Below, in pieces: positions 3,863 through 31,200 of a stretch of DNA of 37,082 bases. The DNA comes from Planctomycetaceae bacterium. Its GTDB lineage: Bacteria; Planctomycetota; Planctomycetia; Pirellulales; Pirellulaceae. The stretch spans positions 1-37,082 of the forward strand of contig PBOG01000048.1 of assembly GCA_002724245.1 (NCBI GenBank), written 5' to 3'. Within the stretch, counting starts at the first letter, position 1; every line of letters begins with the position of its first letter. Both the position numbers and the translations under genes were made by a program. The notes below the pieces were generated by a model, which saw only the letters and a list, made by a program, of their open reading frames with translations, searched no databases and had not been told where the DNA came from.

Positions 3863-5269
3863 ATGTTGACGATTAATGATGGAAGTCGCCAGCCAGATTG
3901 TCGTCGGACGCAAAGGCGAGAACTGTTACGTATTGGTACTCTGGGTTTGGCCGGGTTGAGTTTGCCACAATTGCTGGCAGCGCGGGCCAGTGGCTCCGAA
4001 TCTGCGGTACTGCGGGATAAATCCGTGGTCCTGCTGTTCTTGCAAGGAGGGCCATCCCACATTGAACTTTTTGATCCCAAGTTGACGGCACCTGCGGAAA
4101 TTCGCAGCATCACTGGCGAAGTCTCGACTCGGTTACCGGGTGTCACATTTGGAGGCACCTTTCCACGTCTCGCGAGTTTGGCGGATCGTTTGACCGTCGT
4201 ACGCTCGTACGCCTCTGGGAATTCGAGCCATACTTATGGCGCCGTTGCCAGTGGTGGCAACACGTTGCGTGCAGCGATGGGTGCGGTGTATGCGCGCGTA
4301 GCCGGTAGTAATGATTCACGGACCGGTATACCAGAAAATACCCTGGTGTTACCGGAAGCGGTTGCCGAGGGCTTGAAGTTAAAACGTAACTTTGAAACCC
4401 AGGCGTTGCCAACGTTGACGGACCCGGGAGCATTGGGAACGTCCTGCGCCGCTTTTGATCCGAGTGGCGGCGGCCCGCTGCAGGAGAGCATGCGACTCAG
4501 CATTGGTCGTGGTCGGTTGGATGATCGCAGGGCATTGCTCGGGCAGCTGGATCGTATTCGGCGTACTGCGGATGCCTCGGGTGCATTGCGTGGTCTTGAT
4601 CAATACCAGCAACAGGCTTTTGACATGATCGTGCGTGGGATTGCACGGGCATTCGATCTCAAACGCGAGGATCCAGAGACCGTTCGCCGTTACGACACGT
4701 CACAGGTGTTTCGTAATCAAGATATTCAACGGTACGGTGATATGCGACGATCGACGAATCTGCTGGGACGTCAGATGTTGCTCGCGCGCAGACTCTGTGA
4801 GGCCGGGTGTGGGTTTGTGACGGTATCGGATTGTGGCTGGGACATGCATGCCAACAACAACAGTCCCAAGAATATGCAAGGCATTTACCCCTTGGGTCAT
4901 CAAGTGGACCAGGCAGTGGCCGCATTTATCGAAGATCTTCATGCGCGTGGTTTGCAAGAGAAGATTTTGCTGGTGGTCACCGGAGAAATGGGACGAACGC
5001 CTCGGATCAACAACAACGGTGGTCGCGATCATTATGGCGCGTTGACAAGTTTGTTGTTTGCCGGAGGGGGCTTGAACATGGGGCAGGTCGTCGGGCAGTC
5101 CGATCGTCATGCGACCCGACCTGCGACCGAACGCTATGGACCTGCTAATCTGATGGCGACAATCATGCACACGTTGTTCGATGTCGGCGAACTTCGCTTG
5201 CAAACGGGTTTGCCGAATGAATTGATACGGACGATTGAGTCCGGTCGCCCGATTCCGGGTTTGTTGTAG
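3863..5269 (+). CDS. DUF1501 family protein, Tat-exported (orphan copy 1)
   Basis: 468 residues, usual length for the family. A twin-arginine leader covers residues 1-42 (RR at 18-19, then LLRIGTLGLAGLSLPQLLAA). DUF1501 features follow in order: VVLLFLQGGPSHIELFDPK near 55-73, RLPGVTFGGTFPRLASLADR, a YASGNSSHTYG segment, GWDMHANNN, and TGEMGRTPRINNNGGRDHYG near 374-393. The fold is related to the alkaline phosphatase/sulfatase superfamily, but the activity is unsettled. DUF1501 genes usually sit directly after a DUF1549/1553 gene; here none is adjacent, so this is an orphan. A PAL-like propeller gene follows 138 bp downstream on the same strand. The extracytoplasmic location is inferred from the leader. 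Confidence 0.9.
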   Translation: MLTINDGSRQPDCRRTQRRELLRIGTLGLAGLSLPQLLAARASGSESAVLRDKSVVLLFLQGGPSHIELFDPKLTAPAEIRSITGEVSTRLPGVTFGGTFPRLASLADRLTVVRSYASGNSSHTYGAVASGGNTLRAAMGAVYARVAGSNDSRTGIPENTLVLPEAVAEGLKLKRNFETQALPTLTDPGALGTSCAAFDPSGGGPLQESMRLSIGRGRLDDRRALLGQLDRIRRTADASGALRGLDQYQQQAFDMIVRGIARAFDLKREDPETVRRYDTSQVFRNQDIQRYGDMRRSTNLLGRQMLLARRLCEAGCGFVTVSDCGWDMHANNNSPKNMQGIYPLGHQVDQAVAAFIEDLHARGLQEKILLVVTGEMGRTPRINNNGGRDHYGALTSLLFAGGGLNMGQVVGQSDRHATRPATERYGPANLMATIMHTLFDVGELRLQTGLPNELIRTIESGRPIPGLL

Positions 5270-5407: not shown

Positions 5408-6406
5408 ATGAATCAAAGTCGTCCCCAGCCCGAAGACGTGGGACAAGGGGAGCATGTCTACCAGCCAATGGATGCGTGGCATCAAGTTCCCGCAGACATG
5501 TCCATGGGAGAGGCGGTCGGCATCGCGGTTGATTCACAGGACCAGGTATTTGTTTTCAATCGAGGCCAGCATCCGGTCATGGTGTTTGATGCGGATGGGA
5601 AGTACGTGCGATGCTGGGGGGAAGGTGAGTTTCGACGACCACACGGCATTCACATTGACTCTGACGACGTGTTGTACCTGACTGATGATCAAGGGCACTG
5701 TATCTACAAGTGCACGGCTGATGGTGAGCGACTGGTGACTTTCGGAAGTCCGGGCGTACCGAGTGACACTGGTGTTGTCGACGCGAACTATCGCACTCTC
5801 CAGCAGCCAGCGGGACCGTTTAACCTTCCTACGAATGTGGCTTTCTCTGCCCACGGTGAGATGTTTGTCAGCGATGGATACGGAAACTGTTGCGTCCACC
5901 GTTATTCAGCGGCCGGTGAACTTCAATTGTCGTGGGGGGAGCCCGGGTGCGAGGAGGGACAGTTTCACCTGCCGCATGGAATCGCTGTTGACAGTCGGGG
6001 TCGAGTGATCGTCGCCGATCGGGAGAATAGTCGCCTGCAGTTTTTCACGCCTGAGGGTGAATTTTGTGAACAATGGACCGATGTCGTACGACCCTGTAAT
6101 GTGTTTGTTACCGCAGACGGCAACCTGTTTGTTGCGGAAATGGGTTGGCATGCTGGAACATCAGAGCCTCGGCCAGACGAGGCTGGCGGCCGTGTCAGCG
6201 TGTTTTCCCCGGACGGTGTCTTGCTAAGCCGTTGGGGCGGCGGCTTGGATCCTTATGTGGCAGGTGACTTTATTGCACCGCATGACATCTGGGTGGATCG
6301 GCGGGGAAATGTGTACGTAGCAGAAGTGACACTTTCCGCGGGTGTCAGTCGTGGGTTGGTGACCGCGCGTTGTGCGACACTTCAGAAGTTCGTGCCGCGA
6401 CGTTGA
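5408..6406 (+). CDS. NHL six-bladed propeller resembling peptidyl-alpha-hydroxyglycine alpha-amidating lyase
   Basis: 332 residues. ATG at 5408 is preferred because GGGAG at 5396-5400 lies 7 nt upstream; ATG at 5405 is possible. The protein is a chain of NHL-type blades (GIAVDSQDQVFVFN, GIHIDSDDVLYLTD, NVAFSAHGEMFVSDGYGN, GIAVDSRGRVIVADREN, NVFVTADGNLFVAEMG, DIWVDRRGNVYVAE). In animal PAL three His bind zinc, and Tyr and Arg line the active site. Here His79 (PHGI), His190 (LPHGIAVD) and His292 (APHDIWVD) recur with similar spacing. Tyr158 lies in DGYGN, and Arg205 and Arg209 lie in DRENSR. No signal peptide is seen, so it is probably cytoplasmic, unlike animal PAL. The acetamidase gene follows 310 bp downstream. 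Lyase activity is a hypothesis; related propellers may only bind ligands. Confidence 0.82.
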   Translation: MNQSRPQPEDVGQGEHVYQPMDAWHQVPADMSMGEAVGIAVDSQDQVFVFNRGQHPVMVFDADGKYVRCWGEGEFRRPHGIHIDSDDVLYLTDDQGHCIYKCTADGERLVTFGSPGVPSDTGVVDANYRTLQQPAGPFNLPTNVAFSAHGEMFVSDGYGNCCVHRYSAAGELQLSWGEPGCEEGQFHLPHGIAVDSRGRVIVADRENSRLQFFTPEGEFCEQWTDVVRPCNVFVTADGNLFVAEMGWHAGTSEPRPDEAGGRVSVFSPDGVLLSRWGGGLDPYVAGDFIAPHDIWVDRRGNVYVAEVTLSAGVSRGLVTARCATLQKFVPRR

Positions 6407-6716
6407 CCCGCTTTGCGGTTTCTCGCCGTACCGATTGCTCGTGTGCGGGAGACGCAGTACGATCGTTTTGGTTGCTCTGCCAGCACTTCTGCGCGGGTAG
6501 GTTCATTGGTTTGAGAATCACTGCGAGCTGGCATGGGCAGGTGCGGATTGCTGGTGAATGTCCGTTTCTCAGCGCGATGTTTTCGTGACCGTTCCTGTCA
6601 GGTAACCGTCCTGCCCTTCAAGGGCTACGCTGCGAATTGTAAGCCGACTACGGGTGTGGCAGGTTCGGCCCGACGGCCTGTCGATTGGATCGTGGATTTC
6701 TACTGGAGGCTACGCG
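6407..6716. other. 310-bp intergenic region, no gene seen
   Basis: The stretch separates the propeller gene from the acetamidase gene. Short frames here lack ribosome sites and family resemblance. I see no strong hairpin or terminator. GGAGG at 6705-6709 at its end is the acetamidase ribosome site. Confidence 0.55.
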
Positions 6717-7628
6717 ATGGAACACCGATTTGTCCCTGCGACGTATTATCGATCTTTGGGGCCGCACCCAGCGGCGTTGCATGTCGCTGCTGGTGATACG
6801 GTGATCACTTCCACGGTGGATGCCAGGGGATACGATCTAAATCGCGAACAAGCCACGCCTCGCGGCAACCCTCAGACGGGACCTTTCTATGTTGAGGGAG
6901 CTGAGCCAGGGGATACGCTGGTCGTGCAATTGGATAAGGTGCAGCCGAACCGCCGTTATGGATGGTGTGGGTCGTCGGTGGCCCCGAATGTCGTTGATCC
7001 CGCGTATGTTCGTGAGTTACCCGAAGCTCCGCTTGCCGAGTGGGATATTGATACGCAAGCAGGAACCGCGACGCTCTTATCGCCTCAGTCGAATCTAGGC
7101 GACCTGGTGTTGCCACTGGATCCGATGATCGGCTGCTTTGGAGTTGCGGCGCGAGGTGGACAGGCAATCTCAACTGCGACCTCTGCCGAGCACGGTGGTA
7201 ACATGGACTACCGAGGTTTTGTCGCCGGTACGACGGTCTATTTCCCGATCTTTGAGCCCGGTGCGCTGTTCTTTCTGGGGGATGGGCATGCGGTTCAGGG
7301 TGACGGTGAGATCGTCGGGTCGGGAATTGAGATTTCAATGGATGTCCAGGTAACGTTAGATGTGCAAAAAGGCCGGGAGATCGGTTGGCCACGTGGTGAG
7401 AATGATGACTGGATATTCACCGCAGGTAACGCGCGTCCGCTCGATCAGGCAACGCAACACGCGACCACGGAAATGTTGAAATGGCTGCAACAGGATTACG
7501 GCTTGGATCCGTTGGCCGCGAACCTGCTGATGGCGCAATGCGTGCGTTATGATCTGGGCAATGTGTTTGATCCGGCCTACACCATGGTCTGCAAACTCAA
7601 CAAGCAATGGCTCCCGACACGTACTTGA
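6717..7628 (+). CDS. Acetamidase/formamidase family amide hydrolase
   Basis: 303 residues. The start at 6717 is fixed by GGAGG at 6705-6709, 7 nt upstream; an earlier ATG at 6654 has no such site. The family (FmdA/AmdA) hydrolyses short aliphatic amides to the carboxylate and ammonia in the cytoplasm. Diagnostic stretches are NPQTGPFYVEGAEPGDTL near 50-67, LPLDPMIGCFGVA, AEHGGNMDYRGF near 158-169, LFFLGDGHAVQGDGEI near 183-198, and a C-terminal AANLLMAQCVRYDLGNVFDPAYT. The length matches the shorter bacterial members. It lies between a PAL-like propeller, whose expected product is an amide, and a PLP lyase, all on the same strand. The true substrate is unknown. Confidence 0.92.
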   Translation: MEHRFVPATYYRSLGPHPAALHVAAGDTVITSTVDARGYDLNREQATPRGNPQTGPFYVEGAEPGDTLVVQLDKVQPNRRYGWCGSSVAPNVVDPAYVRELPEAPLAEWDIDTQAGTATLLSPQSNLGDLVLPLDPMIGCFGVAARGGQAISTATSAEHGGNMDYRGFVAGTTVYFPIFEPGALFFLGDGHAVQGDGEIVGSGIEISMDVQVTLDVQKGREIGWPRGENDDWIFTAGNARPLDQATQHATTEMLKWLQQDYGLDPLAANLLMAQCVRYDLGNVFDPAYTMVCKLNKQWLPTRT

Positions 7629-7735: not shown

Positions 7736-9004
7736 ATGAAACGTACTGAATTGCCTGCGGAGGGATTGGCTCCGGACAAGGTTGTGCACGCCATGGGTAA
7801 GATTCGGGCAGATGATGCTCCATGGTATGGTCCACGTCGTTTTATTGGAGGCAGTTATTACGGCGGCGAAGAAGTCCAGCAGGTTGCCGATCGAGCCAGT
7901 CAGGACTATCAGCACTACAACGCGTTATACGCCGGCAAGGTCTTTCCCAGCCTGGTGCGTTATGAGCGGGAGGTGGTGGACATTCTTTTGAGTCTGTTGC
8001 AAGCGCCTCAGACGGCTAGTGGATGCGTTACTTCAGGAGGTACAGAGAGCCTGCTGCTGGCGGTGAAGACGGCTCGCGATTGGGCCGCGGCCGAACGGCG
8101 TGGCGCCCAGTCTCCAGAGGCAACCCCTGAGATTGTCGTGCCGTATGCCGCGCATCCCGGCTTTGACAAAGCAGCTCACCTGTTGGGGATGCGGTCGATT
8201 CGCGTGCCGGAGGGACCCGGGTATCGAGCCGACGTGGGAGCAATAGCGCAGGCGATCACCAGCAATACGGTGATGCTGGCGGCTTCCGCGCCCTCCTACC
8301 CCTACGGGGTGACGGATCCCATCGACGAGTTGGCAGAGTTGGCGAGGACACAGCAGCTCTGGCTGCATGTCGATGCCTGTCACGGTGGTTTTGTGTTACC
8401 GTTTGCCCGCAAGTTGGGTCATGCGGTTCCCGCTTTCGATTTTGCCATTCCGGGAGTGACTTCGATTTCTGTTGACGTGCACAAGCTAGGTTACGCGAAT
8501 AAGGGCGTTTCGGCTTTGTTATTGCGGGACCACGAACTCAGTGAATTTCAGCATTACGGATTTACGAACTGGCCGGCGGGTGCCTACCGGACCGCAGCGG
8601 TCAGCGGATCACGTTCTGCCGGGGGCCTGGCCTCAGCCTGGGCTGTGATGCAGTTTCTCGGCGAGGCGGGGTATTGCGAGATTGTCGAGAATATCATTGC
8701 CACACGTGAAAAACTGGTTACCGGCATCGGCCGAATTGCCGATCTTCAGGTACGGGGAAAGCCTGATGGGTATTTGGTCGCATTCGGGTCTGATGATTAT
8801 GACAGCCATGCCGTGGCGGACGGCATGGAAGACCGTGATTGGGTTTTTAACCGCCTGCGAAATCCGCCATCGTTACATCTGTTCCTTGACCGTTCGCATA
8901 GCGATTCGGTCGACGTATTTCTGGCGGATTTGCACCAGGTCATGGAGGAGGTGCGATCGGGCCGGCGTCAAGCGCGTGCCGTAGACGCAGTGTACGCGGT
9001 CTGA
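7736..9004 (+). CDS. PLP-dependent lyase resembling sphingosine-1-phosphate lyase (group II decarboxylase fold)
   Basis: 422 residues, fold type I. Family marks in order: NALYAGKVFPSLVRYEREVV near 61-80, which corresponds to the NPLH-x-x-FP region of sphingosine-phosphate lyases; CVTSGGTESLLLAVKTARDW; LHVDACHGGFVLPFARKLG, with the Asp that pairs with the PLP ring nitrogen; and GVTSISVDVHKLGYANKG, with Lys250 as the expected Schiff-base lysine. The usual HKYGY reads HKLGY. There is no N-terminal membrane helix, so it resembles the soluble bacterial enzymes. Known members cleave long-chain-base phosphates to an aldehyde and phosphoethanolamine; glutamate or tyrosine decarboxylase activity is the alternative. 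No sphingolipid synthesis gene is visible nearby. The ribosome site is weak (GGAAG 10 nt upstream). Confidence 0.85.
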   Translation: MKRTELPAEGLAPDKVVHAMGKIRADDAPWYGPRRFIGGSYYGGEEVQQVADRASQDYQHYNALYAGKVFPSLVRYEREVVDILLSLLQAPQTASGCVTSGGTESLLLAVKTARDWAAAERRGAQSPEATPEIVVPYAAHPGFDKAAHLLGMRSIRVPEGPGYRADVGAIAQAITSNTVMLAASAPSYPYGVTDPIDELAELARTQQLWLHVDACHGGFVLPFARKLGHAVPAFDFAIPGVTSISVDVHKLGYANKGVSALLLRDHELSEFQHYGFTNWPAGAYRTAAVSGSRSAGGLASAWAVMQFLGEAGYCEIVENIIATREKLVTGIGRIADLQVRGKPDGYLVAFGSDDYDSHAVADGMEDRDWVFNRLRNPPSLHLFLDRSHSDSVDVFLADLHQVMEEVRSGRRQARAVDAVYAV

Positions 9005-9075: not shown

Positions 9076-9131
9076 ATCAAGCAAGTCATGAGCCGCACCG
9101 GTTCCCGAATCGTTGGATGTGGAGAGTGAGC

Positions 9132-10478
9132 ATGCTCAATTTTTCCGATCGTCGAAAGTTCTACCAGTGCGATGGAATCGCACGACGTTCATTTTTGCAG
9201 GTTGGTGGGTTGGCACTCGGTGGAATGGCCCTCCCGCAGATGCTGCAGGCTGAGGCGACTTCGGGCATTCGCGATTCGCAAAAATCCGTCATTATGATTT
9301 ATTTGACGGGCGGCCCACCGCATCAGGACATGGTCGATCTGAAACCGCATGCTCCGGCAGAAATCCGTGGCGAGTTCTCGCCCATCTCGACCTGTTTGCC
9401 AGGGATCCAGATCAGTGAGCACATGCCGCGTTTGGCGCGCATGTTGGATCGTTTTGTCACCATTCGTACGCTGGTGGGTTCCAATGGTGGACATACCTCT
9501 TTTCAATGCGTCACGGGACGTAGTTCCGGGAACCAGCCACAGGGTGGCTGGCCGGGGGTTGGTTCGGTTCTCTCCAAGTTGCACGGCCCGCGCCATACAG
9601 GCGTGCCACCGGCGATGAATTTGTTCATGAAGATGGCCCACAAACCCTACAACCATCCGGGCCCCGGATTTTTGGGAATGAGCCATCAGGCATTCCAGCC
9701 TGAGGCGGAGGGCCAGGAAAACCTCAAGTTAGAAACTCTTGGCGTGAACCGTCTGGATGACCGTCGCGAATTACTTCGCGCATTCGATGGCTTTCGTCGA
9801 CAGGTCGACCGTCGCGTCGAGGGCGGGGGGCTCGATCCCTTTACGGAGCAGGCGCTGAATGTTCTCACTTCCAGTCAGCTTGCCGACGCGCTTGATCTCG
9901 AGAAAGAGGATCCACAGATCCGTGCGAGTTATGGAAAAGACGATACCAAGGTGCTTTCATATGGCCACTTGGGTTACCAGGCAATCATGTCGAAGTTTCT
10001 GTTAGCACGCAGGCTGGTGCAGGCCGGAGCTCGCAGTGTGACCGCGACGTTTGCGGATTTTGACTGGCATGGCGGTAATTTTTCGAATGGTCGCAAGGTG
10101 TTGCCATTGCTGGATCAGGGCCTTACGGCGTTGATTGAAGATCTTTACCGACACGGAATGCAGGATGATGTGACTGTCGTGGTGTGGGGTGAATTTGGGC
10201 GGACTCCCCGGATCAACAAGAGCGCGGGGCGAGACCACTGGAGCCGCAATGCGTTTGCCTTGCTGGCAGGCGGAGGAATGCCTGTTGGCCAGGTCATCGG
10301 TTCTACTAATGCTTACGCGGAAGAGCCGGCAGACCGTCCCGTGCATTTCCAGGAAGTGTTTGCCACGATCTACCGCAACCTGGGAATTGATGTGCAGCAG
10401 ACCACAATCACAGACCTGAACGGTCGGCCTCGCTACCTGGTCGACGACGGTTATCTGCCGTTACAAGAATTGATGTAG
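9132..10478 (+). CDS. DUF1501 family protein, Tat-exported (orphan copy 2)
   Basis: 448 residues. The start at 9132 is preferred to ATG 9117 because GGAG at 9121-9124 sits 7 nt before it. A twin-arginine leader is present (ARRSFLQVGGLALGGMALPQMLQ, RR at 18-19). DUF1501 core motifs are VIMIYLTGGPPHQDMVDLKP, SEHMPRLARMLDRF, GGHTSFQCVTGR, FDWHGGNFSNG and WGEFGRTPRINKSAGRDHWS. The first motif has Pro-Pro-His where most members have Pro-Ser-His. It shares only the family core with copy 1, so the two are not recent duplicates. No DUF1549 partner is adjacent; the HpaI-type aldolase gene follows after 87 bp. Function is unsettled. Confidence 0.9.
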   Translation: MLNFSDRRKFYQCDGIARRSFLQVGGLALGGMALPQMLQAEATSGIRDSQKSVIMIYLTGGPPHQDMVDLKPHAPAEIRGEFSPISTCLPGIQISEHMPRLARMLDRFVTIRTLVGSNGGHTSFQCVTGRSSGNQPQGGWPGVGSVLSKLHGPRHTGVPPAMNLFMKMAHKPYNHPGPGFLGMSHQAFQPEAEGQENLKLETLGVNRLDDRRELLRAFDGFRRQVDRRVEGGGLDPFTEQALNVLTSSQLADALDLEKEDPQIRASYGKDDTKVLSYGHLGYQAIMSKFLLARRLVQAGARSVTATFADFDWHGGNFSNGRKVLPLLDQGLTALIEDLYRHGMQDDVTVVVWGEFGRTPRINKSAGRDHWSRNAFALLAGGGMPVGQVIGSTNAYAEEPADRPVHFQEVFATIYRNLGIDVQQTTITDLNGRPRYLVDDGYLPLQELM

Positions 10479-10565: not shown

Positions 10566-11318
10566 ATGACTGACGGTTTCCGTGCGCGGTTACAGCAGCG
10601 AGATCCACTACTAGGTACGATGATTACCTTACCGTTGGGCTCCACTGCGGAAATTCTCGCAGAAGCGGGGTTTGACTGGTTTTTTGTTGATGGTGAACAC
10701 GGCCCTTTGGAAACAGCCGATTTACTTGGCATTTTGCAAGCTGTTGGGCAGCGGGTTCCCTGCGTGGTTCGCGTACCGGTTCGTGGTGAAGCGCCGATCA
10801 AGAAGGTGCTTGATCTGGGGGCGGATGGTGTGATTGTGCCGCAGGTCAACACTGCGGCGCAGGCGGCCGAAGTTGTCGGACATGCCCGGTACGCGCCGGA
10901 GGGTTCGCGGGGAGTAGGCCTGGCACGTGCCCATGGGTACGGGTATCGGTTCCAGGAGTACGTCGATTCGGCGAATGACCGTATTGCCGTGATCGTACAG
11001 GCAGAACACGCCGACGCAGTTGAGAATATCGATGAGATCGTGAAGGTTGATGGAGTCGATGCCGTTCTTTTAGGACCCTATGACCTGGCGGCCAGCCTCG
11101 GGAAAATGGGACAGATTGATGATCCCATCGTGACTCAGGCGATTGACCGTGTGACGCAAGCCTGTCTGGATGTTGACATGCCGTTAGGGATTTTTGGTGT
11201 GACGTCAGATGCGGTGCGTCCCTATATGGAACGCGGTTATCGCTTGATCGTGGCAGGGGTCGATGTCTTGTTTCTGGGCAGTGGAGCGCGGAAGATGCTC
11301 GGAGAGCTGCGCGGGTAG
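10566..11318 (+). CDS. HpcH/HpaI family metal-dependent class II aldolase (copy 1)
   Basis: 250 residues, the normal length for this family of divalent-metal, pyruvate-type aldolases. Motifs: FVDGEHGPLE near 40-49 (catalytic His), VVRVPVR with the substrate-binding Arg, LGADGVIVPQVNTAAQA, GSRGVGLARAHGYG, VIVQAEHADAVENIDEI (metal Glu), and LLGPYDLAASLG (metal Asp). Most homologues have QIET where this protein has QAEH, which keeps the Glu. Enzymes of this kind cleave 2-keto-4-hydroxy acids to pyruvate and an aldehyde, or run the reverse with acceptors such as glyoxylate. It is 87 bp behind DUF1501 copy 2 and convergent with the DUF58 gene. The physiological substrate cannot be read from the sequence. 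Confidence 0.92.
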   Translation: MTDGFRARLQQRDPLLGTMITLPLGSTAEILAEAGFDWFFVDGEHGPLETADLLGILQAVGQRVPCVVRVPVRGEAPIKKVLDLGADGVIVPQVNTAAQAAEVVGHARYAPEGSRGVGLARAHGYGYRFQEYVDSANDRIAVIVQAEHADAVENIDEIVKVDGVDAVLLGPYDLAASLGKMGQIDDPIVTQAIDRVTQACLDVDMPLGIFGVTSDAVRPYMERGYRLIVAGVDVLFLGSGARKMLGELRG

Positions 11319-17070: not shown

Positions 17071-18777
17071 ATGAGCGAGCCACTGAACCGGTACAGTCAA
17101 CGTATTACTCAGCCCCGTAGCCAGGGTGCGTCGCAGGCGATGCTCTACGGTACCGGAATGACCGAAGAGGACATGGCGAAGCCTCAGGTAGGCATCGCCA
17201 GCGTTTGGTATGAAGGCAACACCTGCAATATGCACTTGTTGGACCTGGCAGCGAAGGTGAAAGAGGGTGTGGCTGGCACGGGCTTGCATGGAATGCGGTT
17301 CAACACGATTGGCGTTAGTGACGGAATTTCGATGGGTACCGAGGGGATGAGCTATTCGCTCCAATCCAGAGACCTCATCGCCGATTCGATAGAGACAGTA
17401 ATGGGAGCACAATGGTACGACGCGCTGGTTGCCCTGCCGGGTTGTGACAAGAACATGCCCGGCTGTTTGATTGCCATGGGGAGATTGAACCGTCCGGCAA
17501 TCATGGTTTATGGAGGCACCATTCGACCTGGCTGTACCAGCTTCCGCGACAAGGATGATTCTCAGGCAGAAACGCCGCGGGATATCGTTTCCGCCTTTCA
17601 ATCTTATGGAGAGTACCTGGCCGGCAAAATCACGGATGAGCAGCGTCAGGAAATTGTCCGAGTGAGCTGCCCTGGAGCAGGCGCCTGCGGTGGCATGTAC
17701 ACCGCCAATACAATGGCCTGTGCGATCGAAACTCTAGGCATGTCCTTGCCTTACAGTTCATCAATCCCCGCAGAGTATCCAGAAAAACTAGAGGAGTGTG
17801 TGCGGGCCGGTGCGGCAATTCGAGTTTGCCTGGAAAGGGACATCAAGCCTCGTGACGTGATGACGCGTGAGGCATTTGAAAATGCCATGGTCGTTGTCAT
17901 GGCCCTGGGCGGGTCGACCAACGCGGTTCTGCATCTGATCGCAATGGCGCGTAGTGTGGACGTTGAGTTAACGATCGACGACTTTCAGGCCGTCAGCGAT
18001 CGGATTCCCTACCTAGCGGATTTGAAACCCAGTGGTCGTTACGTTCAGGAGGATCTGCACGCAGTTGGTGGGACTCCCGCCGTGATCAAGTATCTGCTCG
18101 AGGCTGGTTTACTCCAAGGCGACTGTTTGACGGTCACGGGGCAGACGTTGGCAGAAAATGTGGCCAACTGCCCGGGCCTCAAAGAGGGGCAGACGATCAT
18201 TGGCACGGTAGAAGAGCCCATTAAGGCAACCGGGCATTTGCAGATCTTGAAAGGTAACCTGGCACCAGAAGGGGCGGTCGCCAAGGTCACAGGTAAAGAG
18301 GGCTTGCACTTTACAGGGACGGCGAATGTTTTTGATTCCGAAGAAGAGATGATCAAGGCGCTGGAAGAAGGCCGCATTCACAAGGGGGATGTGATCATTA
18401 TCCGTTACGAAGGCCCCAAAGGTGGGCCAGGCATGCCCGAAATGCTGACTCCGACATCCGCAATCATGGGAGCCGGGCTGGGCGCCGACGTAGCACTTCT
18501 TACGGACGGCAGGTTTTCAGGTGGGTCGCACGGGTTCATTGTTGGCCATATCACCCCCGAGGCGCAAGAAGGAGGGCCGTTGGCTCTGGTGGAAAACGGG
18601 GACCGAGTCACTCTGGACGCCGAAAACAATCGTCTCGATGTCGAGCTCGATGAAGCACAGTTAACCGCGCGACGGGAAGCCTGGCAGGCGCCACCGTATC
18701 GGGCCACACGCGGCACGCTCTACAAGTACATCAAGAACGTGAAATCAGCTTCGTTGGGCTGTGTTACGGATGAATAG
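17071..18777 (+). CDS. ilvD: Dihydroxy-acid dehydratase
   Basis: 568 residues, normal length. The enzyme removes water from 2,3-dihydroxy-isovalerate or 2,3-dihydroxy-3-methylvalerate in valine and isoleucine synthesis (EC 4.2.1.9) in the cytoplasm. Iron-sulfur cluster cysteines are Cys52 (GNTCNMH), Cys125 ([11 protein letters not shown]) and Cys206 ([14 protein letters not shown]). [20 protein letters not shown] and [15 protein letters not shown]-type motifs are present ([16 protein letters not shown] near 476-491). These favour a true IlvD over the related sugar-acid dehydratases. GAGGAG at 17060-17065 gives a 5-nt ribosome-site spacing. TACAAT at 16996-17001 is a possible -10. The last codons (VTDE and the stop) lie in the first copy of a 16-bp repeat array. 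The aldolase operon follows on the same strand. Confidence 0.96.
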
Positions 18778-18865
18778 CGTTACGGATGAATAGCGTTACG
18801 GACGGATAGCGTTACGGACGGATAGCGTTACGGACGGATAGCGTTACGGACGGATAGCGTTACGG
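18763..18865. repeat. 16-bp minisatellite starting inside the ilvD stop region
   Basis: Six full 16-bp copies start at 18763, 18779, 18795, 18811, 18827 and 18843; a 7-bp partial copy follows at 18859. The first two read GTTACGGATGAATAGC. The next four read GTTACGGACGGATAGC. Copy 1 encodes the last four IlvD residues and its stop. The array ends about 58 bp before the next gene. It has no spacers, so it is a direct tandem repeat, not CRISPR. Confidence 0.97.
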
Positions 18866-18923
18866 TGTGGCAGGTATGCGTCGGGCGCGGTTTTGAGGCA
18901 ATTCATTTTTGGGGAGCAGTTTT

Positions 18924-19712
18924 GTGCGAAAGAGCAAGACATTGGGCAAGTTGCGTTCAGGGCAGACTGCGCGCATTTGTGGGTTGGGGCACTTTATCCC
19001 CGCTTTCTTGAAGCACGCGGCCCATTTTGGTTTCGACTGTATCTGGCTTGACAATGAGCATCGCGCGATGGAGCAACGTGAGGTGCAGGCGTTACTGGCA
19101 TACTTCCATCTTTTTGATATCGACTGCATGTTGCGTCCGCCGACGCTGGAACCCACCAAACTGTATCGGTATTTCGAAGACGGCGCGACGGGTTTGATGA
19201 TTCCCTTTGTGTCGACTGCTGAGAAGGCTCGAGAGTTGGTGCAGGCCGTCAAGTTTCCCCCGATCGGAGACCGGGGTCTGGATGGCGCCGGCCTGGATAG
19301 TGACTTTTATCTTCGTGGCGATGAGGGATTTACCGATCGCGCCAACGCCGAAACGTTTCTGGTGGTGCAGATAGAAACTCCGGAGGCGGTGGAGAACGTG
19401 GACGAGATTGCGGCGGTCGAAGGTGTTGATGGCCTGTTTGTTGGTCCTGCTGATTTGTCATTGCGGTTACGTACCGGTGATAGTTCTCTGACGCTGGAGT
19501 CGGCGACCGAACAGGTCGCGGTAGCGGCGGCGCGGCATGGAAAAGCCTGGGGACGCCCGGTGGCTGACCAGGAGCAATTGCAGACGCTCCATGCGCAGGG
19601 CGCACGCTTATTGGCCTATGGAGGTGAGTTTGCAGCATTCTTGAATATGCTCCGTGAACGCGGTGAGGAATTTGACCAATTACTGCGGGCGACTGAGCAA
19701 GAAGGTGGATGA
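18924..19712 (+). CDS. HpcH/HpaI family metal-dependent aldolase (copy 2)
   Basis: 262 residues from a GTG start at 18924, chosen because GGGGAG at 18911-18916 lies 7 nt upstream; a TTG-initiated longer form would overlap that site. Family motifs: FDCIWLDNEHRAME (catalytic His), MLRPPTLEP (Arg), DGATGLMIPFVSTAEKA, DRGLDGAGLDSDF, LVVQIETPEAVENVDEI (metal Glu) and LFVGPADLSLRL (metal Asp). It differs clearly from copy 1, so the two probably have different substrates. The SDR gene starts 6 bp after its stop, which indicates co-transcription. It likely cleaves a 2-keto acid from the pathway encoded by the following genes. Confidence 0.9.
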   Translation: MRKSKTLGKLRSGQTARICGLGHFIPAFLKHAAHFGFDCIWLDNEHRAMEQREVQALLAYFHLFDIDCMLRPPTLEPTKLYRYFEDGATGLMIPFVSTAEKARELVQAVKFPPIGDRGLDGAGLDSDFYLRGDEGFTDRANAETFLVVQIETPEAVENVDEIAAVEGVDGLFVGPADLSLRLRTGDSSLTLESATEQVAVAAARHGKAWGRPVADQEQLQTLHAQGARLLAYGGEFAAFLNMLRERGEEFDQLLRATEQEGG

Positions 19713-19718
19713 TCTGAC

Positions 19719-20507
19719 ATGCGATTTGAGAACAAGGTTGCGCTGGTGACGGGCGCGGGACGTGGGATCGGTAAGGGGTGTGCGTTGGAGCTGGCTCGTG
19801 GTGGTGCTCATGTGATCATCAACGATCGACCAGACAGCCCTGATCTCTTGACGACGCAGCGCGAAATCGAAGAGTTGGGTGCGCAGGCGACGCTGTTGGA
19901 GGCAGACGTATTTCAGCAGTCAGGCAGTGAAGAATTGGTCAAGTCCGCGTTGGCTGCCGCCGGACAAATTGACATCCTGGTAAGCAATCCGGCGTGGGGG
20001 AAGCGTTGCTCCTTTCTGGAATACCAGCGCGAAGACTTTGAGCGCGTAATTCAAGGGACGTTGATCAGCGGGTTCGCGATTGGTCAGCAGGTTGCCCGTC
20101 ACATGGTTGCCCGCGGTGGTGGTGGAAAAATCGTTTTCATTTCCAGTGTTCAGGCAGAGATTCCCTTTGCACTGAGCATTGCCTACGGCGCAGCCAAGGT
20201 GGCTTTGAATCACATGACTCGCACGATTGCTGTGGAATTGTTTTCGCACCGGGTCAATGTCAATGCGATTGAACCGGGTTGGATTGATACACCGGGTGAA
20301 CATGAGTCGTTTGGAGATGATGCAATCCAGGCAGAAGGGCAGAAACTACCCTGGGGACGCTTGGGAACTCCAGCTGACATCGGCCAGGCAGCTGCCTTCC
20401 TGGCATCGGAAGAAGCGGACTATATCACGGGTAGCATTCTGGCGGTGGATGGTGGTTTTCGCTTTCGACATTGTCGCGCCGATGACATGATCTCGGCCGC
20501 GGATTAG
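19719..20507 (+). CDS. Short-chain dehydrogenase/reductase (SDR)
   Basis: 262 residues, classical SDR. The Rossmann motif is VTGAGRGIGKG near 10-20. The catalytic triad is Ser in FISSVQA, Tyr in AYGAAK and the Lys four residues later. PGWIDTPG, the substrate-loop start, follows, and the protein ends with a typical GSILAVDGGF. The usual NNAG reads SNPAWG, an unusual replacement that may affect the central helix packing. It uses NAD(P)H to oxidise or reduce an alcohol or carbonyl group in the cytoplasm. It sits 6 bp after the aldolase and 68 bp before the enolase-superfamily gene, which places it in the same catabolic operon. Confidence 0.93.
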   Translation: MRFENKVALVTGAGRGIGKGCALELARGGAHVIINDRPDSPDLLTTQREIEELGAQATLLEADVFQQSGSEELVKSALAAAGQIDILVSNPAWGKRCSFLEYQREDFERVIQGTLISGFAIGQQVARHMVARGGGGKIVFISSVQAEIPFALSIAYGAAKVALNHMTRTIAVELFSHRVNVNAIEPGWIDTPGEHESFGDDAIQAEGQKLPWGRLGTPADIGQAAAFLASEEADYITGSILAVDGGFRFRHCRADDMISAAD

Positions 20508-20575
20508 GGCGTCGGTATATGGCGGTCATTTTGATGATTTAACTCAGCGCCAATCTGGTTATCAGGGTTCCTGGA

Positions 20576-21730
20576 ATGAAAATCACAGCGATTAAGACAC
20601 ATACCATGGGCGTGCCGGGGCCCGGGGGATTTGCGCCATCACGCAATTGGATTTTTGTTGAAGTCGAGACAGACGCCGGTATTGTGGGGCTTGGCGAAGC
20701 GACGACCGAGTACCACGAACAGGCTGTGATCGCCATGGTACAAGAGCATTTTGCTCCGCTGTTGATCGGCCAGGACCCGACCCGTGTCGACCATCTTTGG
20801 CAGCAGATGCAACGCTTTTCGTGGTGGCGCGGCGGCGTTGTTGCCAGCAGCGCGGCGAGTGGAATCGAACAAGCGCTCTGGGATATCACGGGAAAAGCGT
20901 ACGGGGTGCCAGTCTATAAACTGCTTGGGGGTGCAGTCCGTGATTACGTTCGCTTGTACGCGCGCACTGATCTGGGGCTGGCGACTTACGGGGAAGAGGC
21001 ACGCGCTGCAGTCTCCGAAGGTTTCGACGGATTCAAGTTTGGTCCCGGCCCCTATGTGAGACCCTATAACGACGAGCAGCAAGTGGATGTCGCACTGGGG
21101 ATCTCCCGCGAAATTCGGGATGCGGCCGGACCCGATTGTGAACTCATGATTGATTGCGGTGGAATTTTCTCCCAGCAGGCCGCGGTGCGTCTGACCGAAG
21201 GACTACGTGAAGTCGAAATGCTGTTTGTCGAGGAACCCGTCAATATGGATACGCCACATGGATTACGCGCGATGCGGCGTTGTTTCCCGGATGTTCGGAT
21301 TGCCGCAGGAGAAAGGTTGATGACTCGCTGGCAGTTTCGTGAATGGCTGGAAAGTGAAGCGGTCGATGTGATCCAGGCGGACATTTGTCATTGTGGCGGT
21401 ATCGGAGAATTAATGCGGATTGCGACCTGCGCCGAGGTCTACAACGTACAGATTGCACCGCACAATCCCTATGGACCTGTCGCGTTGGCCGCTGCAGCGC
21501 ATGCGGCGTTGGCCATGCCAAATTTTCTGATTCTGGAACATTGTCGCCACCGCCCCTGGTTGGACGAGGTCCAAATCCATGGAATGCCGGTCGCGAAAGG
21601 GCGCATTGAAGTTCCTGATCGTCCTGGTTTGGGGGTCGAGTTGGATTGGGATTACGTGAAGCGCCATCCGTATCAACGGCTCGATCTGCGTACGTTCCAT
21701 GATGCGGATGGCAGCTTGCCACTGGTTTGA
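20576..21730 (+). CDS. Enolase-superfamily acid-sugar dehydratase (mandelate racemase/galactonate dehydratase type)
   Basis: 384 residues, full length for the mandelate racemase group. N-terminal capping domain 1-125 (MKITAIKTHTMGVPG, GLGEATTEYHEQAV). Barrel domain: FDGFKFGPGP, then metal ligands Asp in LMIDCGG, Glu in LFVEEPVN and Glu in RIAAGERL. A His follows in QIAPHNPYGP. These match D-galactonate or related acid-sugar dehydratases, which abstract the proton alpha to the carboxylate and give 2-keto-3-deoxy acids. Its neighbours, two aldolases and an SDR, fit breakdown of such an acid. The exact sugar acid cannot be decided from sequence. The ribosome site is weak. Confidence 0.92.
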   Translation: MKITAIKTHTMGVPGPGGFAPSRNWIFVEVETDAGIVGLGEATTEYHEQAVIAMVQEHFAPLLIGQDPTRVDHLWQQMQRFSWWRGGVVASSAASGIEQALWDITGKAYGVPVYKLLGGAVRDYVRLYARTDLGLATYGEEARAAVSEGFDGFKFGPGPYVRPYNDEQQVDVALGISREIRDAAGPDCELMIDCGGIFSQQAAVRLTEGLREVEMLFVEEPVNMDTPHGLRAMRRCFPDVRIAAGERLMTRWQFREWLESEAVDVIQADICHCGGIGELMRIATCAEVYNVQIAPHNPYGPVALAAAAHAALAMPNFLILEHCRHRPWLDEVQIHGMPVAKGRIEVPDRPGLGVELDWDYVKRHPYQRLDLRTFHDADGSLPLV

Positions 21731-21791
21731 TCGAGTCGTTTCTTTTGTTTCGCCGTTCAAGATCTTTTTTTGCCATCGAAAGCCAATTGCA

Positions 21792-22709
21792 ATGCCTCTT
21801 GCTGAAGCTGGACCGCAGGGAGTGGTGCCGATTATCCCAACCTTGTTCAATGCGGATGAGGAGATGGATCTCGCGGCCACCGCCGCCTGCGTACGATTTG
21901 CAGTGGAAAGTCAGTTGTCCGCGGTCTGTTTGCCGGCGTATGGCAGCGAATTCTATAAGCTCACCGACTCCGAACGAACGGCCCTGGTTGGTGCTGCGGT
22001 TGAGGCTGCGGAGGGACGCACACTTGTCATTGCACAGTCCAATCACCCTGCCGCACGACATGCCGCCGACTTGGCGAAAGCCAACGAAGGACGCGGTGCT
22101 GACCTGATTTCATTTGCGCTACCGCGAATGTTTGCGCTGCCAGAAGCGGATCTCTTGGCTTACAGCCAAACCATTTGTCGAGCGGTGAAAATTCCAGTGC
22201 TGATTCAAGATTTCAACCCCAGTGGCCAGACAATTGGAGCGGATTTTTGTCGCAGGTTGTCTGAAGACTGTGATAATTTTTCGTTTGTAAAGCTCGAAGA
22301 ACCATTGATGGCTCCCAAGGTACGAGCCATCCGAGAGGCAACGGAGGATCGGGTTGGCGTGCTGGAAGGTTGGGGTGGAATGTATCTGCTGGAACTCATC
22401 GGGCCCGGGATTTGTGGGCTGATGCCTGGTCTGGCATTAGGTGACTTGCTGCAGAAAGTCTGGCAATTAGCGAGAGCGGACAACGGGTCCGAGGCCGCGG
22501 ACCTTTTTGAGAAATTGTTGCCACAGATTGTCTATTCGTTGCAGAACATGGAGTTGTTTCTGTGGATGGAAAAGGATCTGTTGGTTCGCAGAGGTGTTAT
22601 TTCACGCGGCCAGGCGCACGTGCGCACCGCAACGTGCACGCCCGATGAAGATGCCTGGCAACATGCAATCTGGCTCAATCAACGCATCGCTGATTTGGCA
22701 GGTGAGTGA
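21792..22709 (+). CDS. DapA family class I aldolase/lyase
   Basis: 305 residues from ATG 21792; the upstream extension to 21699 overlaps the previous gene and is unlikely. It is a dihydrodipicolinate synthase/N-acetylneuraminate lyase-family barrel: GVVPIIPTLFNADEEMD at the N-terminus, AYGSEFYKLTDSER near the usual GTTGE site, and FSFVKLEEP with Schiff-base Lys167. The position of the conserved catalytic Tyr (Y-N-x-P in DapA) reads Asp-Phe141-Asn-Pro, so Tyr is replaced by Phe. Such members often act on 2-keto-3-deoxy sugar acids rather than aspartate semialdehyde. It follows the dehydratase by 61 bp, so a role downstream of it is likely. The gene is convergent with the DUF1549 gene, 122 bp away. 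Confidence 0.9.
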   Translation: MPLAEAGPQGVVPIIPTLFNADEEMDLAATAACVRFAVESQLSAVCLPAYGSEFYKLTDSERTALVGAAVEAAEGRTLVIAQSNHPAARHAADLAKANEGRGADLISFALPRMFALPEADLLAYSQTICRAVKIPVLIQDFNPSGQTIGADFCRRLSEDCDNFSFVKLEEPLMAPKVRAIREATEDRVGVLEGWGGMYLLELIGPGICGLMPGLALGDLLQKVWQLARADNGSEAADLFEKLLPQIVYSLQNMELFLWMEKDLLVRRGVISRGQAHVRTATCTPDEDAWQHAIWLNQRIADLAGE

Positions 22710-28160: not shown

Positions 28161-28256
28161 CCGCGCGCTATGCTCGTACCCTCCTGGGATGGATAGTTGG
28201 TACGCATCGCGTTCCACTTGTAGAGCGCCATGGCAGGACATGGAGGTCCGCTGGTC

Positions 28257-31200
28257 ATGCCCTTGCGCAGACGTTACAGGGCAGTTCGATTCGTTCCGTT
28301 ACATTGGCGGCATTGGCTATTGCTCGTGTCGGTGTGTTGCTGTGCGGTTGCGGCTTGTCTCGCCCCGCCCGGCTTTGCCGATGAACAAGGCCAGGCGGAC
28401 CAAGAGCTGCAGGTCCGTCTGCGTGTTGAGTGGGGCTACGGTCAGCCCAGGCAGTGGAATGGCAGTTTGCGCGTGTCGGATGGAACGGTACGTGATCTGG
28501 CTGTGTTAGGGTGGTCTGCAGATGCGCCCGGTTGCGTGTTGCTTGACCAGAACGCTGTACGAGTTGCCCACCGCCAGCAGCTTGATTATGACGGCTTCGA
28601 TATTACGGTGACCGGGTCATTGGACAGCCGTGTGCTCCTCGAGTTTGCTCCCCGTGACCAGCCTTCGGAACGGCGTTACCTGGAGATTCCGCTACAGAAG
28701 TTTCTGCCCTCGGACGGCCTCCATGATTCGTCTTTGGACCAGCAAGCAAACCGCCTGGTAGTGCGCCGCGCACCTGGTGATCGTTTGCGACTGGATGTCG
28801 AACCTCGGTCGCTGGTATTTTCCAAGGGCGAGCAGTTTGAAATGGAGGTTTCCGTTTATCGCCCCGGTTTCCTTTTGGATTCAGAGGGGGCTCTGCACGT
28901 GAAACTTCGGCGAGGCCGTCAAGGTGAGGAAATCTGGAATCGCCAGTCGGTCATTTCCGCGATGCAGGGTGCTGTCCAGGCAGACTTTCGTCCGCTGCGT
29001 TTTCCGGTTCCCGACCAGGAAGGGGTTTACCAGCTGGAGTTTGAGTTTTATCGCAACCGCAGTCGTCTGGTTGTACCGCTGGTAGCAGACGTGCCTGATC
29101 TGACCAGACAAGTCCAGTTTGTGGTGATCGACTCCAAGTCGACGGCACCAAGTCAGGCGGAATGGACGACGGTGCTGGATCTTGATCCCACGAGTAAAAG
29201 CTGGTGGGATCAATTGGCCCGGCTGACACAGATGGAGTGGCTGGTCTCGGAAGATGCGGCGGTCAGTGGGCAGGGTGCGGCCGGGCGTGTCAAACACTTG
29301 GGCCGGGAGTGGGTCGATTTGCCGCCGGAAGGATGGAAGATCTATCCTTTAGCAATTGAACGCGTCGGTGCCCCGCACGTGCTGGAAGTCGACTATCCGG
29401 ATGTGGCTGCGCAGTCGCTAGGCATTAGCCTGCTTGAACCCAACGTAATCGGGAAGGTGGGGCCGCTCGGTGTTGATTCCGGCGTTGAGGTGGATCCGCC
29501 GCGCAAAGACCAGGCTCACGTTGTTCGTACACATCGCCTGGTGTTTTGGCCCAAGACCGCCAATCCGATGCTGCTGATCACCAACCGGCGGGCTGAAGAG
29601 TCTGCGTTGTATGGAACGATTCGTGTGCGTAGTGGTCCAGAGCGGTTGCCTTCCAGGGGGGATGCCGGGGAGCCCCTCGGCACGAAAACATCTCCTCGGT
29701 TGTTGGCAGCTTTCTTCGACAAGCCTTTGTTTCCCGAGAATTTTCAGGCAACGCAGAGCGGGGTTGCGGGTATTGCACCACTCGATGATTGGGTCACGTT
29801 TTATGAGGGGGGGCGACGGCTAACAGAGTACTTGCGTTATGCGGGTTACAACGCAGCGATTCTGTCGGTCAACTGTGAAGGTAGTACGCTGTACCCGAGT
29901 GAACTCGTGTCCCCGACGCCCAAGTACGATTCGGGAATCATGCTGGGGGAAGCGAAGGATCCTTATCGTAAAGATGTGCTCGAGATGCTTTTTCGCCTGT
30001 TTAACCGGGAGGGCATGCGTCTTGTTCCGGTGGTTGAATTTGCTTCGTTGTTGCCTGAGCTGGAGCGGTTGCGTTTGGACCGTAACCTCGCATCGAAGGA
30101 ACTGGTTGGGGTCGATCTGGTGCGGCGCGACGGGAAGTCGTGGTCCGACGTTCACGTGCCGCGCGGCGGTTTGGCGCCCTATTATAACCCTCTGGACCCA
30201 CGTGTTCAGACTGCCATGCAGAACGTGGTTGACGAGCTGGTCGAGCGCTACGCGCACCATCCCGCGTTTGCAGGAGTGGCGTTGCAGCTGGGCGCTGAGA
30301 CCTTTGCTCAATTTCCGGATGACAACTGGGGCTATGACCGGGTGACTCGGAAACGATTTGCGGACGCTGTAGGTGTGGAAGCGGTTTCTCGTTTGCAGGA
30401 TAGTTTGGCCGCGGACGCGGAAAAGTCGCTCTGGTTGAATTGGCGGGCGACACAGCTGGGCGCGTTTTATAAGACTTTGCGGACTACCATTAGCCACCGC
30501 CGCGAAAACGCCAGGCTATTCCTGCTCGGTTCGCGCATGCTGGATTATCGGCGCGTGCAAAGGGAGTTGCGGCCGCAGTTAGCACGTCGTGGAAGGCGGA
30601 GCGGTGTCGTCGAGAAGAGGCCTCTCGGGCCGGAATCGACCGGCGGGATGCAGCCGGCCGATCGCAACGTCCGCGAATTAATGTTGCGAGTCGGGATCGA
30701 CGTAGAGAGCTTTCAAGACGACGGGCAGGTCGTGCTGCTGCGACCGCACCGGTCGGCCCTGCAAGCACCGCTCACGGAGCGGTCGGTTGATTTGCGATTG
30801 GCGCACTCGGCTGCGTTTTCTCGTTATTTTGCCAACGCGGGCGGTACCGGAAGCCTGTTGTTCCAGAAAGCGACTCCGCTGGCCCTGCCCGCGCTGGAAG
30901 AACGTAGTCCGTTCGGGAAAGAGAATACGCAGGCCTGGCTGTTGGCGCACTTCTCGCCTGGTGGATCCGCTAATCGCCGGCGTTTTGTACATGCGTTGGC
31001 AACGCTCGAATCCGACACTCTGGTGGCGGGTGGCTGGTTGCTTCCGATTGGCCAGGAGGATTCGCTGCTGCCGTTCTTCTCGACTTTCCGTGGATTGCCT
31101 GCCCGCAAGTTTCGGGACGTCTTGCCGCAATCTGGCAAGACGCCAAGCCAACCTGTTGTGGTCCGAACGCTCGTCGATCAAGGTCAAACGCTTGTTTATC

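Follow-up and report, generated by a model that had tools for sequence, protein, structure and literature searches.

A planctomycete relative of the amidating lyase PAL, encoded beside an acetamidase, suggests that bacteria use PAL chemistry for small-molecule breakdown

Introduction

In animals and in Chlamydomonas, peptidyl-alpha-hydroxyglycine alpha-amidating lyase (PAL) takes part in peptide amidation, its step following that of a copper hydroxylase; the animal enzyme is secretory. The same kind of carbinolamide is split to glyoxylate by the ureidoglycolate lyase AllA, which differs in fold from the propeller discussed here.

An excerpt of PMC5461114 describes the PAL reaction, and passages of PMC12636437 discuss hemiaminal cleavage in peptide biosynthesis, naming PAL only as a precedent. 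According to extracts of PMC12508155, MgdL, an N-(hydroxymethyl)guanidine lyase, is a bacterial lyase for hemiaminal decay encoded in a nitrogen-scavenging operon, in which it resembles the system proposed below. In contrast to the proposed reaction, MgdL releases formaldehyde, and its authors state in the same extracts that it is not homologous to PAL in sequence.

A bacterial PAL as such is not new, since public records already list relatives of the protein described here under the name of the PAL family. These proteins are homologous to it at 31–41% identity, and those of Bradyrhizobium and Priestia keep the same six active-site residues. Yet the neighbors of PAL-named relatives differ from those at our locus and include a gene for 4-carboxy-4-hydroxy-2-oxoadipate aldolase and ectoine genes. 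We recognized no experimental work on any bacterial PAL homolog in the open-licence literature searched.

The DNA analyzed here (the window) is a stretch of 37,082 nucleotides from a Planctomycetaceae bacterium (GCA_002724245.1, contig PBOG01000048.1). An earlier note on it had outlined a three-step route: a PAL-like propeller splits a carbinolamide, the acetamidase encoded by the next gene hydrolyses the amide, and an HpaI-type aldolase takes up the glyoxylate. We find this route plausible and partly supported, while its substrate and glyoxylate steps are what we infer.

The locus

The window is planctomycete DNA, as it carries DUF1501, PSD1 and PSCyt2 genes and the three named genome records that match it are planctomycete MAGs. 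Six genes on the forward strand encode, in this order, a DUF1501 protein, the propeller, the acetamidase, a PLP-dependent decarboxylase, another DUF1501 protein and the HpaI aldolase (Table 1), and the order is conserved in a congeneric MAG. No Rfam family reached its gathering score in the window, so no riboswitch or other RNA was recognized. Promoter-like sites numbered 0 (shuffle mean 4.2) and terminator-like sites 10 (9.2 in shuffles); with such counts, an operon boundary cannot be drawn from the window.

Two further regions were observed. The cluster at 17071-22709, which encodes an ILVD/EDD dehydratase, an HpaI aldolase, an SDR, an MR_MLE enolase-superfamily protein and a DHDPS-family aldolase, looks like a sugar-acid degradation pathway. 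The 1342-aa protein encoded at 28230-32258 has a weak GHL10 glycosyl-hydrolase-like match as its sole Pfam match at the threshold used.

Table 1. Positions of the features discussed (in the window unless a locus is named)
Feature	Position	Strand	Basis
DUF1501 protein upstream of the propeller	3863..5269	+	Pfam; order shared by congeneric MAG
PAL-type six-bladed NHL propeller, 332 aa	5408..6406	+	Pfam NHL, hhalign to rat PAL, AlphaFold2 model, 3fvz superposition
R52 codon	5561..5563	+	counterpart of PAL Arg533 by alignment
H79 codon	5642..5644	+	counterpart of PAL His585 by alignment
Y158 codon	5879..5881	+	counterpart of PAL Tyr654 by alignment
H190 codon	5975..5977	+	counterpart of PAL His690 by alignment
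R205 codon	6020..6022	+	counterpart of PAL Arg706 by alignment
H292 codon	6281..6283	+	counterpart of PAL His786 by alignment
Acetamidase/formamidase FmdA_AmdA, 303 aa from ATG	6717..7628	+	Pfam PF03069, PDB 5ubu, GGAGG and ortholog alignment
PLP-dependent decarboxylase, MfnA-like, under the cut-off of that model	7736..9004	+	profile match
Second DUF1501 protein	9117..10478	+	Pfam
HpcH/HpaI aldolase, candidate glyoxylate sink	10566..11318	+	Pfam and NCBIfam matches
Amidase-family and propeller genes (4-bp overlap), Paracoccus and Sulfitobacter	L112:6808-8846 and L115:4682-6738

A propeller with the active-site residues of PAL

The propeller gene is preceded by GGGAG, and its product contains NHL repeats (Pfam E 1.4e-20), with no signal peptide seen when the N-terminus was inspected by eye. 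NCBIfam names no family for the protein, the top match being ScyF with 93 bits vs a cut-off of 350. About ten related propellers are encoded in the same genome (a 7.79 Mb assembly), a point overlooked by the earlier note. The nearest of these paralogs is that of locus L042 (58%), and a propeller 85% identical to ours is present in a MAG of the same genus (L041).

The resemblance to PAL that had been pointed out turned out to be homology across most of the protein, with six known active-site residues retained. An alignment of 35 sequences (A1) matched rat PAL in hhalign with a probability of 100 and an E value of 8e-42 over 271 columns; the rat reference sequence is identical to the PDB chain at 323/323 residues. 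Two MAFFT modes concurred in equating R533 with R52, H585 with H79, Y654 with Y158, H690 with H190, R706 with R205 and H786 with H292, and also Asp787 with D293, and they counted 83 identities in 276 and 277 aligned pairs, respectively. We take His585, His690 and His786 of PAL to be zinc ligands, and the roles of the matched residues in the PAL active site are presumably those of zinc ligands, base and carboxylate binding. Membership in the PAL superfamily was judged by homology over most of the length, found with hhalign, by the three zinc-His positions, occupied by H79, H190 and H292, and by counterparts of Arg533, Tyr654 and Arg706, present as R52, Y158 and R205. All residues listed beforehand (H79, Y158 of the DGYGN motif, H190, R205 and R209 of DRENSR, and H292) are exactly where they had been placed; R52 was absent from that list and completes the set of six.

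Both rat PAL and the window protein are NHL propellers with the six active-site residues at matching positions. Unlike rat PAL, the window propeller is stand-alone and apparently cytosolic. It lacks the 24-residue insert that PAL has after RGD and has loops of its own, absent from PAL, at about 122-134 and 311-323.

Across A1, H79, Y158, H190, R205 and H292 are invariant and R52 is conserved in at least 90% of sequences, a set that omits five of the six exception-bearing rows found in a wider list. In that list of 44 loci, in which L009 and L041 are duplicates, all 44 retain the three His, 43 retain Y158, 43 R205 and 40 R52; such losses of single residues, seen in more distant rows, count against the lyase reading, as does the Asp of Mesorhizobium noted below. 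The aligned sequences indicate conservation beyond chance, because five residues are invariant and the sixth reaches at least 90% across A1. All six residues are complete in 39/39 loci of the near clade (about 38% identity and more), in 8/8 more distant planctomycete rows chosen from 20 available and in 6/8 plasmid relatives; thus in 53/55 chosen bacterial rows. Both Mesorhizobium proteins (L110, L111) have Asp at the R205 position.

The near clade forms a single branch (support 100/99) in a tree rooted for drawing only. Rat PAL is not part of this branch; it lies among the other bacterial rows, and its own branch is long and of unsure position. Judged by eye, near-clade N-termini are without signal peptides, in contrast to many of the more distant rows. 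Of 296 genomes in the host's order, 46 contain a propeller match with an E value of at most 1e-60. Near-clade members, 28 rows with E values up to 4.3e-138, come from 23 of the 296.

The proposed reaction

In the reaction that we propose, the three His (79, 190, 292) would hold zinc in the central channel of the propeller, Arg52 and Arg205 would anchor an alpha-hydroxy acid by its carboxylate, and the substrate hydroxyl would give up its proton to Tyr158. R-CO-NH-CH(OH)-COO- would thereby be split into a free amide and glyoxylate; alternatively, the substrate could be a close hemiaminal, e.g., ureido- or formamido-glycolate. The acetamidase/formamidase encoded next to the propeller would then hydrolyse the released amide, giving ammonia and a carboxylate. 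What we infer from these data comprises the presence of zinc, the reaction and its substrate, a coupling with the amidase and the assignment of the genes to one operon. A cytosolic member of the PAL superfamily, acting as a PAL-type lyase in small-molecule catabolism, is, jointly with hemiaminal cleavage and the amidase step, the best explanation of the locus, and we give it about an even chance of being right.

As for the third step, an HpaI-type aldolase gene does lie further along the same strand, and its product might consume the glyoxylate. This is the weakest part of the route, because the gene is 4.2 kb downstream, its product matches four aldolase models, all of them below cut-off, a second HpaI aldolase belongs to the sugar-acid-like cluster, and, the congener aside, an HpaI match is found in the stretch covered at only two near-clade loci (L047, L052).

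We also considered the propeller as a replacement for ureidoglycolate lyase. A partial Ureidogly_lyase match elsewhere in the genome, which exceeds its cut-off, weakens this candidate, as ureidoglycolate may then not need the propeller. A search for allantoicase gave no match, and the control was silent too.

Genes associated with the propeller

Partner families were sought by tblastn after the neighbors had been seen, and the counts carry no formal odds. The 39 near-clade loci are not independent: window/L041, L042/L043, L055/L056 and L059/L060 each represent a single genus, and further loci also have genera in common; several contigs end near the propeller. The most frequent same-strand partner is Ldh_2 (16 loci), followed by Zn-ADH (8) and acetamidase (5), and in two loci a 2-hydroxyacid dehydrogenase and an isochorismatase-family protein adjoin the propeller. 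A dehydrogenase partner is thus present in 26/39 loci. None of the tested partners is adjacent in 8/39; among these eight, the propeller has HpaI beside it in L052, a luciferase-like monooxygenase in L103 and an MR_MLE-like protein in L101. On the tree, loci with the same partner tend to group together (12 changes vs a shuffled mean of 28.7), an effect to which near-copies contribute.

The near-clade Ldh_2 partners recall AllD, in that 15 of them (alignment A4) match the 'malate/lactate/ureidoglycolate dehydrogenase' model; relative to its cut-off of 336 bits, the protein of L091 lies above (352) and that of L107 below (287). The AllD equivalog cut-off is not reached by the two Ldh_2 members shown. 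The window's own genome has four Ldh_2 genes, one of them on contig C85 around 45 kb from a weak propeller match, and the other three share no contig with the listed propeller matches.

At L042:7770-10688 and L043:7683-10597, the nearest paralog and its congener are followed by genes for a 2-hydroxyacid dehydrogenase and an isochorismatase-family protein. The L042 dehydrogenase matches PGDH and glyoxylate-reductase models only below their cut-offs. This locus adds another combination of a 2-oxo-acid handler and a possible amidase, which speaks for the proposed reading.

For relatives in other phyla, we inspected eight of 54 plasmid records, selected among the rows listed and with no frequency implied. 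In Bradyrhizobium, the propeller gene directly follows the 4-carboxy-4-hydroxy-2-oxoadipate aldolase gene, with hydantoinase/oxoprolinase genes further on. In Sinorhizobium (L109), it is preceded by genes encoding amidohydrolases, a Rieske protein, a PDR/VanB reductase and a VOC protein. The two Mesorhizobium plasmids (L110, L111) carry a divergent 2-hydroxyacid dehydrogenase gene and, downstream, genes for ectoine uptake and degradation, while in Thioclava a convergent dihydropyrimidinase gene adjoins the propeller. Paracoccus and Sulfitobacter encode a TRAP transporter and an amidase-family protein, the gene of which overlaps the propeller start by 4 bp (Table 1). No amidase- or dehydrogenase-type partner of these kinds is found beside the propeller of Priestia. 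The amide and 2-oxo/2-hydroxy-acid enzymes that recur near the family are what the products of PAL, an amide and glyoxylate, would call for.

The chief rival explanation is that the PAL site serves another alpha-hydroxy or 2-oxo acid, such as a sugar acid or hemiacetal, in carbohydrate-acid breakdown, with no amide released. The prevalence of Ldh_2 and Zn-ADH among the partners speaks for it, as do the 76 further neighbors scanned, which include seven MFS transporters (upstream of the propeller in L092, L099 and L102), five sulfatases, three SGL and three HpaI proteins. The MR_MLE proteins of L052 and L101 point the same way, and so does the dehydratase-HpaI-SDR-MR_MLE-DHDPS cluster of the window itself. 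Against it, two Arg and the Tyr are kept along with the three His, beyond the need of a generic metal propeller, and amidases recur as neighbors in separate groups. Dehydrogenase-rich neighborhoods fit both readings, and we regard this rival as a serious one, although rather unlikely to be correct.

The acetamidase neighbor

The gene next to the propeller, named as an acetamidase/formamidase in the earlier note, indeed encodes an FmdA_AmdA protein (Pfam 2.2e-26). Its PF03069 score of 93.1 bits vs a cut-off of 27, together with the HGGNMD and GDxHAxQGDGE motifs that it has in common with the solved 5ubu protein (2.6e-44), places it in this family; the NCBIfam formamidase equivalog is not assigned, with 61.3 bits vs a cut-off of 500. 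The most likely start, to judge from the sequence, is the ATG at 6717 behind GGAGG rather than the GTG at 6654, which leaves 310 bp between the two genes.

We found the acetamidase within 549 bp and on the same strand in 5/39 near-clade loci (the window, its congener L041, L010, L011 and L045), representing four genera at most. In the tree, the window groups with L041 and L010 (support 100/98), L011 stands in an open fork, and L045, whose acetamidase is a different one (33%), is placed elsewhere. Chance adjacency is unlikely, since the window's genome has only two AmdA genes in 7.79 Mb. A search of the 296 genomes of the order for acetamidase gave 41 rows in 38 genomes, three rows being the known adjacent pairs (the window, G276 and G040). 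No propeller was seen in the flanks covered of 12 other acetamidase loci, two of which (L133, L139) have short flanks; the closest one whose flank is long enough, L132 (acetamidase 58% identical), shows no propeller over 7.3 kb upstream. The acetamidase is thus an occasional partner, and the idea of a general one was rejected. These loci slightly weaken the amidase link.

The expectation that propeller homologs would be found near amidase genes therefore stands in part: the adjacency recurs with acetamidase and, in Paracoccus and Sulfitobacter, with an amidase-family gene, yet dehydrogenases dominate the neighborhoods.

The propeller could also be a PAL-type lyase with an acetamidase that serves another step, the two being neighbors but not consecutive in one pathway. 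The confinement of AmdA adjacency to five loci, the 12 acetamidase loci with no propeller in the flanks covered (short in two) and the 310-bp gap in the window would suit such an arrangement. In turn, the matched stretches lie only 22 bp apart in L010 and 65 bp in L011, and the scarcity of AmdA genes in the genome also counts against it; we hold it to be improbable.

Fold and remaining alternatives

The homology, residue set and two-gene adjacency in few genera computed here were complemented by a predicted fold. The AlphaFold2 model of the propeller is confident (mean pLDDT 95.5, pTM 0.93), and in it H79, H190 and H292 each occupy position two of their strand (78-83, 189-194 and 291-296, respectively). 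Their spacing of 111 and 102 residues fits ligands contributed by every other blade, which would meet in the central channel. The expectation that the three His come together in one site of a model therefore stands in part, the agreement being one of strand register and not of distances.

Superposed by VIA-align on PAL (3fvz), the model gave Z 33.6 and rmsd 2.3 with 278 residues aligned at 29% identity, and on Thin (6xg7), an NHL protein other than PAL, it gave Z 34.0 and rmsd 2.2 with 270 aligned, which is a tie. In sequence searches, too, Thin or TRIM71 NHL propellers rank above PAL, since the scores of repeats accumulate there. Fold likeness alone was dropped as an argument for PAL, as Thin or TRIM71 tie with or precede it in structure. 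As far as the sequences indicate, it is the residue set, not the fold, that carries the argument for an enzyme over a scaffold, since a non-PAL propeller superposes equally well. A non-enzymatic NHL binding propeller, for which the comparable superposition of Thin and TRIM71 would speak, is hardly credible given the six catalytic positions kept in nearly all chosen bacterial rows and the TRIM71 repeats shown without the His.

A true peptide-amidating lyase with an unrecognized peptide hydroxylase would account for all six PAL residues, but it is very improbable: PAL is secretory in animals and no signal peptide was seen here, the neighbors look metabolic, and, unlike in animal PAM, no PHM partner was found above cut-off in the genome (PF01082, 0 matches; PF03712, 2 under cut-off), the 14 control genomes being equally silent. 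Two 682-aa frames of the genome, L081 (G000:C108:22677) and L082 (G000:C197:22976), have Cu2_monoox_C matches under cut-off and are possible copper-oxygenase relatives.

Implications for bacterial PAL relatives

Beside the propeller in the window, we recognized no hydroxylase able to make the carbinolamide. At L103:7807-8913 (reverse strand), a luciferase-like (LLM) monooxygenase gene lies directly upstream of the propeller gene, and its product is a possible hydroxylating partner. Hydroxylation of this kind is supplied by NTA or EDTA monooxygenase, and by analogy the L103 enzyme, or the Rieske protein and VanB-type reductase of Sinorhizobium L109, may supply it.

Tentatively, and as a possibility short of a probable one, bacterial PAL-type propellers in general could be the lyase of a PHM-free catabolic module that converts R-X-CH(OH)-COO- into R-XH and glyoxylate, acting on hemiaminals and perhaps hemiacetals. 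The partner would have been exchanged during evolution according to the product handled: a released amide would call for acetamidase, amidase-family or isochorismatase-type proteins, and the 2-oxo acid for Ldh_2, Zn-ADH, 2-hydroxyacid dehydrogenase or an aldolase. Some loci would have their own hydroxylation supply.

The finding of a planctomycete PAL relative beside an amide-cutting enzyme suggests that bacteria use PAL chemistry for small-molecule breakdown. The amidase-propeller pairs of Paracoccus and Sulfitobacter offer a culturable system for the idea of amide release. If the proposal is true, PAL chemistry in bacteria would serve ordinary nitrogen and carbon scavenging, apparently without a copper hydroxylase, and the automatic gene name, which implies peptide amidation in bacteria, would be corrected.
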